DNA of 20,926 nt, from positions 1-20,926 of IMG/VR virus record IMGVR_UViG_3300048925_000657; one strand, 5' to 3'. The notes below the pieces were generated by a model, which saw only the letters and a list, made by a program, of their open reading frames with translations, was not told where the DNA came from and ran no database searches. Position 1 is the first letter of the stretch. The number at the start of each line of letters is the position of its first letter. Shown one piece after another: positions 1 to 15,841 of this stretch. The position numbers and the translations under genes are program-made. This DNA is from a virus.

Positions 1-3
1 CAT
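1..3 (-). CDS. Possible start codon of the next late gene, leaving the window
   Basis: The first three bases read as ATG on the minus strand, directly downstream of the candidate late promoter at 15-74. A gene starting here would run off the left edge, so nothing can be said of its product. From the order small terminase, large terminase, 187-aa gene, the next genes are probably head or portal genes; that is inference from usual phage layout. Confidence 0.3.
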
Positions 4-11
4 CTGCCAAG

Positions 12-40
12 AAACAAAAATACCGCGGTATACGCGGTAT
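12..40 (-). terminator. Hairpin plus T-tract, candidate intrinsic terminator
   Basis: Read on the minus strand, bases 40-20 form a perfect 8-bp G+C-rich stem (CGCGGTAT against ATACCGCG on the plus strand) with a 5-nt loop, followed by TTTTTGTTT. This fits a rho-independent terminator ending the terminase operon after the 54-codon ORF. The same T-tract also supplies the TATTTTTG box of the candidate late promoter, so terminator and promoter overlap physically. Confidence 0.55.
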
Positions 41-74
41 ATAAAGCAAAAAATGAGCGAGTTACTTACATATT
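15..74 (-). promoter_or_regulatory. Candidate activator-dependent late promoter, copy 1
   Basis: The 16-mer AATATGTAAGTAACTC (minus strand, 74-59) is followed after exactly 36 bp by TATTTTTGTT (22-13), a match to the Bacteroidetes -7 box TAnnTTTG. The same 16-mer, 36-bp gap and TATTTTTGTT occur at 5553-5492. At the normal -33 distance there is no TTTG; the nearest is 24 bp from the -7 box. The promoter may therefore need a protein bound at the 16-mer. It would drive the gene starting at position 3. Confidence 0.45.
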
Positions 75-237
75 AAGACGTTGGTGGTTTAGAATTTTCA
101 TTCTTCCATGCATAAAAATCCTGAATGTTTTTATATCTGTAGTAGAAATCATAAACAGAACAATTAAGGATGTAATCTGCTTTCTGCTGATCACCATCGG
201 CAAGTTTCAGGGCCAGTCCGTTATAATGATTATACAT
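73..237 (-). CDS. Small ORF, probable -1 frameshift extension of the 187-aa gene
   Basis: This is a 54-codon ORF (MYNHYNGLAL...NSKPPTS) starting 5 nt after the stop of the upstream gene. Its frame is open backwards past the ATG to at least 261, inside the upstream gene. There it meets the slippery heptamer GGGAAAC (267-261) in the phase needed for -1 slippage. A shift would make a 244-aa fusion (182 residues, then HVGSRITE, then these 54). Reinitiation at the ATG is the alternative. The acidic/aromatic composition (YDFYYRYK, DFYAW) looks protein-like. By analogy with lambda gpG-T this could be the T part of a tail assembly chaperone, but no homology is recognised. Confidence 0.6.
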   Translation of the reverse strand: MYNHYNGLALKLADGDQQKADYILNCSVYDFYYRYKNIQDFYAWKNENSKPPTS

Positions 238-242
238 TTCTG

Positions 243-806
243 TTATTCTGGAGCCGACATGTTTCCCTGCATCGTTTCGAGCATCATTCTTCTCTGGCTG
301 AAAGAAGTCTGGGAAATTTCCGCTAAGTATTCGTTGTACGCTGGAGTTAACTCGATGCCGATGGGCAAAAAAAAACTGTAAGCTTCAGGTTCGGCCAGTA
401 TCTTCTTCATTTTCCATTCAGTCCAATGATTTTCACATTTATCCGGATCCTCCCCATCAACGAATGAATAGATCATTGCCATTCTTAGAACCGCGTTTTC
501 ATCAACAGGATATTTGGTCCTGTACTTAAGGTTATTCGCCAAAACCGCTACATCAGTTATTTTTTTGTCGTTCACAGCCTGAATCATCCTGTCACAAATG
601 GCATTGATAACATCAGGGGTTACTCCTGCAGCAGAATACATATTTTGTGCGTTCGCTGCCAGGTAGCGGGACATGTGATAGTTTGCCATGTTTGTGTGGG
701 TGTAATATCGGAGAGGTTCAGCTCCTTCTTTTAAAGGTTCACCGATTGTGTCGAACATCTTACTGGTGAATTGTACAGTAAATTGTGGATCATCTTTGTA
801 AAGCAT
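243..806 (-). CDS. Conserved-looking phage protein upstream of a candidate frameshift site
   Basis: This 187-aa protein of unknown family lies 10 nt downstream of the large terminase gene and begins with ATG at 806. It looks soluble and helical, with no signal peptide or membrane segment; it has a Tyr/His/Asn/Met-rich stretch near residues 34-60 (TNMANYHMSRYL, AANAQNMYSAAG). The last codons contain GGA-AAC within the heptamer GGGAAAC, 18 nt before the stop TAA, and the -1 frame continues into the 54-codon ORF. A short/long pair produced by -1 slippage at GGGAAAG is the hallmark of lambda G/GT tail assembly chaperones. On that basis I suggest, without sequence homology, a chaperone-like role. 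The position next to the terminase rather than before a tape measure gene is unusual for this. It could also be a head-associated protein. Confidence 0.8.
   Translation of the reverse strand: MLYKDDPQFTVQFTSKMFDTIGEPLKEGAEPLRYYTHTNMANYHMSRYLAANAQNMYSAAGVTPDVINAICDRMIQAVNDKKITDVAVLANNLKYRTKYPVDENAVLRMAMIYSFVDGEDPDKCENHWTEWKMKKILAEPEAYSFFLPIGIELTPAYNEYLAEISQTSFSQRRMMLETMQGNMSAPE
261..267 (-). promoter_or_regulatory. Slippery heptamer GGGAAAC, candidate programmed -1 frameshift site
   Basis: On the minus strand codons CAG GGA AAC form the X-XXY-YYZ pattern in the reading phase required for tandem -1 slippage onto GGG AAA. The zero frame ends 18 nt later, while the -1 frame stays open to 73. Lambda uses the near-identical GGGAAAG for gpG-T. 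I see no strong hairpin directly downstream. Confidence 0.55.
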
Positions 807-816
807 ATTCTTAATT

Positions 817-2184
817 TTAATTATTATTAGTTAGGTGGTAGTTTGATCTTGCGAATTCCTGAAAATATTTCTGGAAAAAATATCTCATATTATCGAAGTG
901 GTCCATTGCAAATGTTCCCCTGTCTTTTTTAAGTTCATGAATATTTTTTGACTTTTCATCAATTGTTGCAATTTCACAATCATTAATTGTGCCTTTACAT
1001 TGAGGGTGGATAAACAAATTAGGGTAATTGTAAAACATTTGGTTAAGCAGGATACGGCTGTTTTCATAGGTTAAATTATAATTGTTAGGCTGCATTTGAG
1101 CATCCGATAAGCCTAAATGTTTTTTAATCATAGAATAGGCACTATCATGCACGCTTTCATATCCAACTTCGCCCTTTTTATTACCAGAGCTGTCGCCAGT
1201 GACAAAGAAAGGACTAAACGGATATTTTGCCTTTATTCTCATACAGAATTCACGCAAAACAACATTTCCTTCCATTTCATCAAGCATGTGGATAAAGCTA
1301 TCAGGCAAACCCTTCTGCGGTGACATCTGAAACATTTTTACAGTCATTGGATTTTTATTAAAGTCAAAGCTGAGATAAATAGGGTAGGACGGTATAAACG
1401 GTATTTCCCGAACATGCTTTTCTTTATCATAAGCATATAACCAAGGATCGTCGTTCGGCATCTGTCCCCAAAGTCCTTTTAAATCCGATAATATTTTCGC
1501 TTCATTTCCTCCGTTATCCATTAACAAGGTTTGCTTATATTCTTCTTGATTGATAAATGGATTATCCAAATATGTAGAATGGTTCAGGTATGTGTCCAGG
1601 TTGCGGAACTGTTCCGACAATTCATATTGTTGTACTTTGTCGAATATCGTTGTTCTTATCCAATGCAGCTCATTGATGAATGTATTGAAGGAAAGAATAA
1701 AACTGTTCTGAGTTTTTAGAGAACGCAATGCTTTGTTAAGCGTATCAAAGTCATCAAATGTCATCTGGTCGGCTTCCTCAACCCATATATGTGTAGGCTC
1801 TGCAATTGACTTTGTCTTCTGGTTATCATCGAGACCTTTCGCTACAGCTCTGTTTCCGTTCCTAAGACATACAAATGAATAATCACTCTGATTAAATTTA
1901 AACTCATTTTCCCACCCCATTAATTTTACACAATCTTGAAATATCTTGAACTGTGAATCTTTAATATGAGCTGACCACTTACGACAATAAACCAGGTACA
2001 TATATTCATCAGTCATCATCCGGGAAAGAAGCAGGATTGCAATATGTGTAGATTTAGAACCGCCTCTTCCCCCGAAGAAAATCATGTATCGGTGAAACCG
2101 GATAAAAGCATCCCGGAACTTGGGAGCAATCTTTTTCTTAGAAATCGCTAATTTCTTGTTGGGAATCTTCGTTTTCGTCATCAT
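817..2184 (-). CDS. terL: Phage terminase large subunit
   Basis: This is the packaging motor ATPase and headful/concatemer nuclease (455 aa). The N-terminal ATPase shows Walker A GGRGGSKS (residues 38-45), Walker B IWVEEAD (133-139) and a coupling motif SFNT (about 165-168). The C-terminal RNase H-fold nuclease has acidic residues in LSFDFNKNP (D274), VTGDSSG (D331) and FAMDHFDNMRYF near residue 430. Length and motif order fit the PBSX-type (Terminase_3) family. It starts at the first of two adjacent ATG codons and overlaps the end of the small subunit gene by 47 nt, the usual terS-terL coupling. All expected catalytic motifs are present, so it should be functional. Confidence 0.95.
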   Translation of the reverse strand: MMTKTKIPNKKLAISKKKIAPKFRDAFIRFHRYMIFFGGRGGSKSTHIAILLLSRMMTDEYMYLVYCRKWSAHIKDSQFKIFQDCVKLMGWENEFKFNQSDYSFVCLRNGNRAVAKGLDDNQKTKSIAEPTHIWVEEADQMTFDDFDTLNKALRSLKTQNSFILSFNTFINELHWIRTTIFDKVQQYELSEQFRNLDTYLNHSTYLDNPFINQEEYKQTLLMDNGGNEAKILSDLKGLWGQMPNDDPWLYAYDKEKHVREIPFIPSYPIYLSFDFNKNPMTVKMFQMSPQKGLPDSFIHMLDEMEGNVVLREFCMRIKAKYPFSPFFVTGDSSGNKKGEVGYESVHDSAYSMIKKHLGLSDAQMQPNNYNLTYENSRILLNQMFYNYPNLFIHPQCKGTINDCEIATIDEKSKNIHELKKDRGTFAMDHFDNMRYFFQKYFQEFARSNYHLTNNN

Positions 2185-10002: not shown

Positions 10003-11481
10003 TTAAGCAGCCCTGCGGGTTTCAATTATTCGCAATGCTGTTGCTTCACAGATTTTACGAGCTATTGTTACCTCTACAGCATTACCAATGAATTTTTTTT
10101 GATCAGTTTTGCTACCTTTCAAAATATAATCCTTCGGGAAACCCATAATTTCTTTTAATTCCTGGACTGTCAACATTCTCATTGTGATTGATTTGATGTG
10201 ATTCAAAATCATAAATTCTTTAATTTCCTTAACCACATCAGAATCACCTTCTTTAATGAAGTCAGAAGGATATCCTCTTTCAGCCTGTAAAATATATAAT
10301 GGCTTTTTATCTTGTCTCGCAATAATTGTGGGAGAAGGTTCATCTATGGATTTTGAAACTCTACCAAATTGTGTGTCCATTAACCATTGAATAGACATCA
10401 AGTTGTGTTTTGGTACAGTGGTCACAGCTCCGGCAGGATTATTAATACTTGATGTTGTCAAGCTTGAATAATCATAATGGATGTAGTGAAGGGCATATCT
10501 GTCTTTAGTAGTTAAAGTACCAATAGGAGAATCAATTGAATGCGCGGAACCATTACCATAGTATGAGGTAAGGAAATGTTTATTTGTCTCTCTTTTAAGT
10601 CCCAGGAGAATTCTTTGATAAGTCTTATCAGATTCGATTTTATCAAAAATTGATTCTCCAATGTCTTCCAAATCCAGAACATCCTTAACTGCTTTCCATT
10701 TTTCTAATTGTCCAAAAAGGGTTACTTCAGGATTTTTTGAATGTGTTTGTTCCGGCCAGACTGTAGGAATATTTTTATTGAATTGAATAAATAATCTTTT
10801 CCTACTTGTATAGGCTCCAAAATCAGCAGCATTCAATAATCTATAATCATAAGAAAATCCACGTTTTAAGACTTCATCAAGCCATGCATTATAATATTCT
10901 GCTTTTCTTTCTTTTATAGGAATCCAAATTGGCCTTAATTCTTTAATTTTTTTCTTTTTATCGATAGTTACAAGATCTAATGGACAATAGGAAGTATTAT
11001 TTTTGTGAATTTCTTTGATCATCAAAGGCCCCCAGATTAGAAACTCCTCAACATTTTCAATCTGTACAGAATCTGGATTTATAGCATCTATGTACCTGAA
11101 TAAGTGATTAGCCAATGTACGAGAATCTGCATCCCTTGACATACCCCCTTTTGCTTTACTATGGTTTGTGCATTCCAGCGAAGCCCAAAGAACAACTCTT
11201 GCAAATGGATATAATTCCCTCATTTTTTTGATATGGAATATTACCGGTGCAAGATCTAAAGTTTTAATGTCTTCAGTAAAATGACAAGAATCAGGATGGT
11301 TTTCTGCGTGACTGGCAATAGCAATAGGATCATGATTGACACATACGATTACTTTTGCACATTTTTCTCTTTTTACTTTTGCAGTTTCAATACCAGTTGA
11401 TGTTCCCCCGGCACCACAAAATAAATCCACATACAATAAACTGACGGCTAAAGTTGCAAGTTTTATAAATTTATTTTTCAT
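10003..11481 (-). CDS. C5-cytosine DNA methyltransferase
   Basis: 492 aa, transferring methyl from AdoMet to cytosine C5, probably to protect phage DNA from host restriction. Motif I DLFCGAGGTSTG (residues 19-30), motif IV with catalytic Cys104 in SLECTNHSKAKGG, motif VI IENVEEF (141-147), motif VIII SRKRLFIQF (226-234), motif X GNAVEVTIA (466-474). A target recognition region lies about 240-440. The residue before the catalytic Cys is Glu instead of Pro (EC, not PC), which I recall from related Bacteroidetes phage enzymes. An unusual hydrophobic N-terminus (FIKLATLAVSLLYVDLF) precedes motif I. It follows the DnaC-like gene by 2 nt and closes the early operon. No matching endonuclease is present, so it is an orphan enzyme. 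Confidence 0.93.
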   Translation of the reverse strand: MKNKFIKLATLAVSLLYVDLFCGAGGTSTGIETAKVKREKCAKVIVCVNHDPIAIASHAENHPDSCHFTEDIKTLDLAPVIFHIKKMRELYPFARVVLWASLECTNHSKAKGGMSRDADSRTLANHLFRYIDAINPDSVQIENVEEFLIWGPLMIKEIHKNNTSYCPLDLVTIDKKKKIKELRPIWIPIKERKAEYYNAWLDEVLKRGFSYDYRLLNAADFGAYTSRKRLFIQFNKNIPTVWPEQTHSKNPEVTLFGQLEKWKAVKDVLDLEDIGESIFDKIESDKTYQRILLGLKRETNKHFLTSYYGNGSAHSIDSPIGTLTTKDRYALHYIHYDYSSLTTSSINNPAGAVTTVPKHNLMSIQWLMDTQFGRVSKSIDEPSPTIIARQDKKPLYILQAERGYPSDFIKEGDSDVVKEIKEFMILNHIKSITMRMLTVQELKEIMGFPKDYILKGSKTDQKKFIGNAVEVTIARKICEATALRIIETRRAA

Positions 11482-13225: not shown

Positions 13226-15841
13226 TTAAGCATCCAACATATCAAAAAGAGTAGGCATGTTTACTTGGTAATTGATAGCATTTATATAGCTTACACCATC
13301 ATTGAAGTACTCTGAATTTAGTTCGCATGAAATTGCTTTCCTTTTCAATTTTAAAGCCATATATGCCGTAGAAAATAGGCCTCCGAAACAATCATCAACC
13401 ATATCTCCTTCATTGGTAAATCTGTAAATTAGCCTTTCAATTATATCCAGCTGCAGAGGACAAATATGCTTTTCTTTTTTACTGTTTACCTGCTTTGCAT
13501 TTAGGGTATTCATCCTGTTTATATCGGACCATACGCATTCTTGATTTGAGTTGGGCGGAAGGGTCATGAATAATTTTGATAATTTACCTTCTTCATCCAG
13601 CATGTCACAAGTCTCCAGGTGCTTTTTATAATTGTACACTACTTTTGTATCGTATTTTTTCCAAGCATTGTAAATCTTATCAATTTCGAATCTCTTTATT
13701 TCGCTAGAAGTCAGAAATCGATCTCCGGAAGACTTCCAATAAGAATGCGCATCCAGCTGCCACATTGACAAAAGATATTCATCAATTCTCTTTGAAACTG
13801 GATCATCTGCATAAGCATTCTTTGTATGGCTTGGAGGTTTTCGGAAAAGAAGAATATATTCCGGGATTCCTACACCCATTTTTGAAGCATCTTTTCTTTG
13901 TTCTCCCCATCCGAGGCGATAGGTTTGGTTATTCTCCCGAACAACATCAGTGGTGATGGTGATACGCCCAATAAAATGAAATCTGTCTTCATAATCGGAT
14001 CTCAATTCCTGAAGTCTTTTATTTTTCAGGTCATCTGAAATACCGTCTTCAGCTGTAAGATTTTCCCAAAGTGCAATTTGGTCCTTCACTTTTTGTTTTG
14101 TAAAATGTCTTACAGTAGTATCTGAAAAAGGTTCTATGGTGAAAAACTGAACATCAGTCTGGTGGGAATACCGCGGCCGGTCCTTCACATGGATTGCAGC
14201 AATCCGGCCAGGTTTTAGCGTTCTGTAAAGTTCGGGCGTTAAGAATTCCATTTGCTTAAAAAATTCTTCGTTTCCGTCATTGTGACCAAAATCATTGTAA
14301 TTATCTGAATATTCGTAGTGATCACCGAAAGGGATGGACGTCAGATGCATTCCTATAGAATCATCAGGAATTTCATCAGGATCCGAATGAACAATAACCG
14401 TATCGTTGTTATATAGAGTGGCATTGCCTATAATAAGCTTCCTGCCATTTTCAAATATTTGTCTTTCCATTTGAGATTTTATTAATTCTGAGTTAAGTCC
14501 GTACTCCCGAACCAAGGCTATCATTTCCGTTTGCAGCTCATTGTGTTTTCGCCACTTGTCAAAAAGTGTTTTAAGAACTTCTCTTTCATTTTGGGTAAAT
14601 ATTATGTAGATATGTACTTCTTTGTCCTGCATAAACCGATACACTCGGTGAACGGCCTGAATAAAGTCGTTAAACTTGAAATCAATTCCGACGAAAATCA
14701 TCTTATGACATGCATGTTGAAAGTTGCATCCAGATCCTGCGATCTTTGGCTTTGTAGCTAAAATTTTATATTGAGATTCTGAAAAACCAATTAAAAGACT
14801 CTCTTTCCAGTTATTGTCTTGGGCACCATAAACAGAATTCAATGAGAATTCCTTGAATTTTTTTTCAATAGCCATTCTTTCAGCCTCCAGATGATGCCAC
14901 AAAATCCACGAATCTTCCGGGCCCTCATTCTGAACAATTTCAAAAGCTTTATTAATTCGGATATCGACGGTTTGAGATTTCTCTCGTGAAGTATCGATAA
15001 GAGATTTTGTATTGTCTTTAAATAAAATTGGAGTACCATTCTTATCTGTAATGAGTTCGTCTGTATAGTTTTCAACCTCAATTTCATGAATATGAAGTTT
15101 AGGAAGATTGTATTTTGAATCATCGTAACCTAAATCAGAAGGTTTGTTGATGAAAACCGCCCATGTGTTAACCCATTTCCAGAATTCACTTTTTTTGTTT
15201 TCAAGCAGCTGCAGGTTGCCAGCCTTAGTGGAATCTCTTTTGAAGAATCTGGTCAGAAGGTGCCCGCGGTCTGCCACTCCAAGATAATCCGCATAATTTA
15301 AAATCTCTATAAAATCATTTGGAGTAGGTGTTGCAGTTGCCACAAATCGGTAAGGCACCTTTTTAAAGTGATTCAAAACATAATTTGTAGTCTCGGTCTT
15401 CAGGTTCCGTAGAATACTTGCTTCATCAAAAGATACTCCAGAGAACTTTTCAGGATCAATATCTCCCTTCCGGATCCGTTCATAATTTGTGATGAATACA
15501 GCATTTTCATTTACTGGAACCTGATCAGAATCAGTAATATATATAATTTCTAAGCCTGTTTCTAGCTTTTCATTATCCCTTTTGAATTCCCCAACTACGC
15601 CAAGTGGGCAGACAATGAGAAATGGTTTATCTTCCTTTTCAATGCATTGCTTTGCAATTTCCAACTGCATCATAGATTTTCCCAATCCGAAAGATGCAAA
15701 GATTGCACGGCGACCACCTCTCAAACACCATCTAACTATATCCGGTTGATGAAGATGTAATTTTGTTGAAAGTTTATCAACCTCAAAACCGAAATTTTCG
15801 GATATTATAACTTTATTTTTTAAGAATTGCTGGTAACTCAT
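13226..15841 (-). CDS. SNF2-type helicase fused to an amino-methyltransferase
   Basis: 871 aa with two enzymes. N-terminal SF2/SNF2 motor: Walker A ASFGLGKS (49-56), motif II DEAS (139-142), motif III TATPTPN (169-175), motif VI QAVHRVYRF (395-403). The C-terminal beta-type DNA N4/N6 methyltransferase has catalytic motif IV TSIPF (501-505) early and the AdoMet motif I DDCFGGLFSTAYMA near 816-829, followed by CELNSEYF. Other family marks: YNDFGHNDGN, LKPGRIAAIHVKDR, TDVVRENNQTYRLGW, MGVGIPEYILLFRKPP. The usual S/D-PP-Y is altered to SIPF, a form I recall as conserved in phage homologues. Likely a self-methylation or DNA-translocating modification enzyme, without any restriction partner. It overlaps the preceding small ORF by 29 nt. 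Confidence 0.9.
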   Translation of the reverse strand: MSYQQFLKNKVIISENFGFEVDKLSTKLHLHQPDIVRWCLRGGRRAIFASFGLGKSMMQLEIAKQCIEKEDKPFLIVCPLGVVGEFKRDNEKLETGLEIIYITDSDQVPVNENAVFITNYERIRKGDIDPEKFSGVSFDEASILRNLKTETTNYVLNHFKKVPYRFVATATPTPNDFIEILNYADYLGVADRGHLLTRFFKRDSTKAGNLQLLENKKSEFWKWVNTWAVFINKPSDLGYDDSKYNLPKLHIHEIEVENYTDELITDKNGTPILFKDNTKSLIDTSREKSQTVDIRINKAFEIVQNEGPEDSWILWHHLEAERMAIEKKFKEFSLNSVYGAQDNNWKESLLIGFSESQYKILATKPKIAGSGCNFQHACHKMIFVGIDFKFNDFIQAVHRVYRFMQDKEVHIYIIFTQNEREVLKTLFDKWRKHNELQTEMIALVREYGLNSELIKSQMERQIFENGRKLIIGNATLYNNDTVIVHSDPDEIPDDSIGMHLTSIPFGDHYEYSDNYNDFGHNDGNEEFFKQMEFLTPELYRTLKPGRIAAIHVKDRPRYSHQTDVQFFTIEPFSDTTVRHFTKQKVKDQIALWENLTAEDGISDDLKNKRLQELRSDYEDRFHFIGRITITTDVVRENNQTYRLGWGEQRKDASKMGVGIPEYILLFRKPPSHTKNAYADDPVSKRIDEYLLSMWQLDAHSYWKSSGDRFLTSSEIKRFEIDKIYNAWKKYDTKVVYNYKKHLETCDMLDEEGKLSKLFMTLPPNSNQECVWSDINRMNTLNAKQVNSKKEKHICPLQLDIIERLIYRFTNEGDMVDDCFGGLFSTAYMALKLKRKAISCELNSEYFNDGVSYINAINYQVNMPTLFDMLDA

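Follow-up and report, generated by a model that had tools for sequence, protein, structure and literature searches.

A conserved run of nine T residues as the likely frame change site of a putative phage tail assembly chaperone gene

A gene at one end of the window, the IMG/VR virus fragment of 20,926 bases that was analysed here, almost certainly has a switch to the −1 frame at nine consecutive T residues (T9), be it by the action of RNA polymerase or of the ribosome, as judged from the comparison of homologous sequences. A short product of 187 aa and a long product of 244 aa would both be made. We consider it somewhat probable that the gene represents an undescribed tail assembly chaperone family that sets its short/long ratio by polymerase slippage on the conserved T9. 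Ribosomal frameshifting is classically illustrated by the λ G-T ratio; if the reading proposed here is true, dose control of the chaperone ratio extends from the ribosome to RNA polymerase. A nine-nucleotide homopolymer is kept across great protein divergence, in a family that shows no detectable resemblance to the chaperones already known. The features of the locus, in window coordinates, are:

1–10, minus strand: putative tape measure protein gene, truncated at the contig edge after its first codons, TTG GCA GAT g (by-eye alignment to loci L002 and L004)
15–41, minus strand: terminator-like hairpin followed by a T-rich tail, in the interval that separates the chaperone gene from the tape measure gene (folds in the window and in four homologues)
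73–375, minus strand: −1 frame, run to its stop, 100 codons of which the last 54 are the 54-codon ORF; putative C-terminal extension of the 244-aa long product, gpT-like role (open and conserved in homologues)
235–237, minus strand: ATG of the 54-codon ORF, read here as a Met codon internal to the −1 frame, not required as a start
243–806, minus strand: zero-frame ORF (ORF list), which would encode the short product of 187 aa, a putative tail assembly chaperone with a gpG-like role
261–267, minus strand: GGGAAAC heptamer, judged a chance match
367–375, minus strand: T9 slip run, AG TTTTTTTTT GCCC, zero-frame codons AGT TTT TTT TTG; proposed −1 frame change site (homologue comparison)
817–2184, minus strand: terminase large subunit gene, upstream neighbour (Pfam Terminase_3, E 8e-38; PHROG terL)

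Position of the frame change and selection on the two frames

Close homologues were collected by degenerate-pattern scans with the window protein and its relatives. Four of them share 74% (L002), 73% (L004), 54% (L059) and 49% (L075) identity with the window protein, and the 187-aa product is kept in these and in 32 more loci. The context AGT TTT TTT TTG CC is identical in all five sequences (the window and the four homologues). The −1 frame opens 0–5 codons ahead of T9 in each of the five (3 codons in the window); in L002 a TAG stop in this frame directly abuts the run. The +1 frame is closed within 18 codons in all five. From T9 onward the −1 translations align without gaps over their first ~28 residues (FFFAHRHRVNSSVQRILSGNFPDFF and relatives). 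A preliminary description of the window had proposed a fusion of the 187-aa ORF with the ORF downstream of it by way of a −1 frame change, and had suggested that homologues be examined for an open −1 frame. The homologue comparison supports the fusion: the frame is open in all four and is conserved at the protein level.

That description had placed the slip at the GGGAAAC heptamer and did not mention the T9 run, which lies ~108 nt upstream of it. The heptamer is indeed in X_XXY_YYZ phase at 267-261, followed by 15 sense nt and the zero-frame stop (245-243); it resembles the λ site, and the −1 frame is open, as described, down to its stop at 75-73. However, GGGAAAC is present in only one of the five sequences. 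By the yardstick of the preliminary description itself, conservation among homologues, it is refuted as a conserved site because it is missing from L002, L004, L059 and L075. Conservation of the −1 frame moreover reaches ~36 codons upstream of the heptamer, which sits in an already open frame since that frame opens 3 codons upstream of T9. Slippage at GGGAAAC is hence extremely improbable. The fusion length of 244 aa given in the preliminary description is the same in both models and stands, but residues ~147 to 182 differ between them, the predicted junction peptides being ILAEPEAYSFFFAHR for a switch at T9 and MMLETMQGNHVGSR for a switch at GGGAAAC.

We compared the substitutions between the window and L002. 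The differences fall 25/14/67 on the three zero-frame codon positions before T9 and 8/12/11 within the overlap; past the zero-frame stop they fall 9/6/31 on the −1 codon positions. The excess of third-position substitutions is lost in the overlap and is back, in the −1 frame, past the zero-frame stop. The zero frame of all five sequences was also recoded synonymously in 20,000 draws, using the codon usage of these genes: none of the 20,000 draws reached the observed −1 similarity (753, compared with 146 ± 60 for the simulation), and five open −1 frames were obtained in none. These comparisons indicate that the zero and −1 frames are both under selection in the overlap.

A reading without any frameshift would make the 54-codon ORF, which starts with the ATG at 237-235, a separate gene translated by coupling. 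This ATG lies 5 nt past the zero-frame stop in the window and is also found in L002 and L004. However, the position is occupied by TTG in L059 and by TTA in L075, and −1 conservation begins at the T9 run, 46 codons upstream of the ATG. Furthermore, L075 has no ATG, GTG or TTG among its 99 −1 codons, and the −1 frame is devoid of these three codons in seven members altogether (L075, L153, L164, L207, L208, L224 and L230); it is therefore not a separately started gene. We consider the separate-gene reading very unlikely, and the −1 frame is treated below as an extension entered at T9.

The T9 family and the agent of slippage

We wondered how widely the run is kept. The regions upstream of tape measure genes in a first tape-measure scan (80 loci) were searched for a zero frame with a −1 continuation at any XXXYYYZ heptamer. 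T9 was found in further, highly divergent proteins (L079, L080/L081, L092, L114, L128 and L123), each extended in the −1 frame by ~94–111 codons, and a profile of the zero-frame proteins independently picked up L153, which likewise carries T9. All of these proteins are connected with the window protein by BLASTP single linkage (E<1e-3, E-values being relative to the loci searched). As a test of prediction, a second tape-measure scan was searched with the zero-frame profile, i.e., with protein only. This yielded 24 new loci (one of them, L159, comes from the contig of L114): 21 have T9, L169 has T8 and L186/L187 have A9. Two scans of genome contigs yielded no relative; a terL scan gave mostly remote matches.

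The family totals 37 loci, grouped at 60% identity into 17 clusters. Of these clusters, 14 carry T9 as the slip run; T8, A9 and T6 followed by A (L110) are each found in a single cluster, and T7 in none. The codon ahead of the run is AGT, GGT, GCT, GAT, ACT or GTT, with a final T in every T-run member. T9 is retained in loci of 40–50% G+C. The plus strand of these tape-measure loci spans 900 kb, with some redundancy, and contains 39 T9 runs (29 at the slip site), 32 T8 runs and 124 T7 runs; the loci were picked by similarity, and these frequencies describe a biased sample of phages. The zero frame goes on for 38–82 codons beyond the slip site, an overlap far beyond what tools searching near the zero-frame stop expect.

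The two mechanisms, insertion of one U and −1 slippage of the ribosome, lead to an identical protein and cannot be told apart by it. If RNA polymerase is the agent, it would add one U on the T9 run to give U10; the resulting mRNA would be translated in the ordinary way (AGU UUU UUU UUU GCC) into the −1 frame, and the frequency of slippage would set the short/long ratio, by analogy with λ gpG/gpGT. Runs of more than eight T are a reported polymerase slippage motif (PMC3711429), and slippage at mxiE is 20–30% (PMC4256274). An A/T homopolymer of at least 8–9 at the frame junction is what polymerase slippage calls for (PMC3711429), and the window has T9 there. The run is nine long in most members, though seven would be enough for the tRNAs. 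Between L123 and L153 it is displaced by one codon position and its length is still nine (a single phase change), and in L186/L187 an A9 stands instead, a few codons upstream (a single base change). Among the clusters with Leu as third codon, TTT TTR is kept in 12 of 12, with a joint chance of ~3e-7 by codon usage, the third −1 Phe possibly being selected itself.

The alternative is ribosomal −1 frameshifting at the same run, with a paired tRNA-Phe slip on U_UUU_UUU (375-369). The window and every T9 member carry this X_XXY_YYZ heptamer in phase, a fact that also tells against the polymerase. Within the same family, L110 offers only T6 then A (U_UUU_UUA, positions 2637-2642), a ribosomal-type site below the usual length for polymerase slippage; the T8 of L169 is likewise under the usual polymerase threshold. 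L110 is a natural test case for ribosomal slippage within the T9 family. Sister chaperone families use A_AAA_AAG, the known phage chaperone switches are ribosomal, with the λ G-T switch as precedent (PMC5009743), and if the third −1 Phe is perhaps selected as protein, this would account for the extra T's. Against the ribosome stand the nine rather than seven T's in 14 of 17 clusters, with T7 absent and T8 found once, and the substitution by A9 in one lineage. The downstream folds may also weigh against it: the pseudoknot-free folds compared differ among homologues (z −0.4 to −2.1), with one pair showing a two-sided change, and no conserved structure was found among them. A stem located downstream, in which the U run would pair with a purine stretch, was discounted because any purine pairs with U and covariation is nearly nil. 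Some bacterial −1 frameshift sites may do without downstream structure. Ribosomal slippage at T9 is a real possibility that we rate as short of probable. Polymerase slippage is favoured because the run length is constant, because the run appears to have survived a phase shift and a T-to-A swap (one case of each), and because no conserved downstream fold was found; on these sequence patterns it is, with modest confidence, the probable main mechanism at T9. A literature search, with Xu et al. 2004 outside its scope, found no earlier U-run chaperone site.

Identity of the gene and its neighbourhood

The preliminary description had taken the short and long products as typical of tail assembly chaperones, and this is the best reading given position and architecture. 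It had also found the place beside terL odd. The gene is indeed flanked by terL, but its opposite neighbour is a tape measure gene. The place appeared odd because the contig edge cuts that gene, and the window holds only its first codons. In L002 and L004 the tape measure gene begins ATG GCA GAT; in these two and in L059 and L075 a tape measure protein gene is the next gene after the chaperone gene, and the L004 protein matches annotated tape measure proteins. The gene studied here lies directly upstream of the tape measure gene, the classic position of a tail assembly chaperone, and on the comparative evidence it would give two products with a common N-terminus via a −1 change, as chaperone pairs do. 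The hairpin in the intergenic interval is found at ~6766-6790 in L002, ~6334-6358 in L004, ~537-568 (minus strand) in L059 and ~4687-4720 in L075, and its stem sequences differ among the window and the four homologues. It could reduce tape measure transcription relative to that of the chaperone.

Comparison of 28 members with Pfam and PHROG gave no significant match, and tblastn of six members against named phages and plasmids gave no chaperone relative. AlphaFold2 with 28 sequences returned a model with a pLDDT of 89, a beta hairpin followed by helices (with 5 sequences the pLDDT was 47 and the model unusable). The pLDDT 89 model has no fold match in PDB or BFVD at E<=0.001; two BFVD matches named tail assembly chaperone were discounted, having E>1. 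Known tail chaperone families are mutually dissimilar. As there is no sequence or fold match, the assignment of the locus as a tail assembly chaperone gene, which we infer, rests on position and on the two-product architecture. If the products act as λ gpG/gpGT do, the N-terminal part common to both would coat the tape measure protein, and tail tube subunits would be recruited by the C-terminal extension.

The λ pair resembles the present one in that the gene is directly ahead of the tape measure gene and gives a short product and a longer −1 product with the N-terminus in common. In contrast, it shares neither sequence nor fold with the T9 family at a detectable level, its slip site is GGGAAAG instead of T9 (where slippage is possibly transcriptional), and its zero frame runs on for a few codons after slippage, compared with 38–82 in the T9 family. 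Shigella mxiE (T9), Thermus dnaX (A9) and Citrobacter tssM1 (A11) likewise have an A/T homopolymer of at least nine within the coding frame, one gene giving two products and run lengths at the reported polymerase threshold; they are not phage tail genes, and slippage is experimental there whereas it is deduced here. For dnaX, E. coli uses A_AAA_AAG and the ribosome, and Thermus uses A9 and the polymerase (PMC3711429), a parallel to the two mechanisms weighed above.

A third comparison is with gp038/gp039 of Flavobacterium phage vB_FspM_pippi8-1, a chaperone-like pair directly ahead of a tape measure homologue with a −1 continuation at a slippery run (L073); unlike T9, the site is a ribosomal-type A_AAA_AAG a few nt ahead of the zero-frame stop, and the protein is not recognisably related. 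In L073 (MN812205), gp038 stops at A_AAA_AAG (10126-10132), beyond which the −1 frame continues through gp039 as far as the tape measure homologue gp040, apparently an unannotated chaperone frameshift. Other chaperone-like families ahead of tape measure genes have either A6 then G (A_AAA_AAG) or A9–A10, with almost nothing between (L086, L091, L093, L094, L095, L096, L101, L103, L104, L106, L111, L115-L118, L121, L122, L132, L137, L140 and L148), a pattern suggestive of two slippage mechanisms. An annotation rule would follow from the main reading: split chaperone genes are marked by long A/T runs just ahead of the tape measure gene.

Host and other features of the window

The phage host is probably a member of the Bacteroidota, since relatives of the window's TerS and DNA methyltransferase occur in Riemerella, Porphyromonas, Tenacibaculum and Cellulophaga phages. 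Riemerella phages have TerS in common with the window; PT03 has two consecutive small genes, a possible chaperone pair, with no T9 or A9 run. The TerS of OQ791282 (Shigella phage Henu10) matches the window as those of Riemerella anatipestifer phages do (47.6%, same span), and its stated Shigella host seems doubtful. Elsewhere in the window, the only other nine-base homopolymer is a T9 on the plus strand at 2924-2932, just upstream of the start, at 2910, of an 84-aa minus-strand ORF. A minus-strand ORF of 871 aa at 13226-15841 appears by eye to combine a helicase with a DNA methyltransferase-like part.
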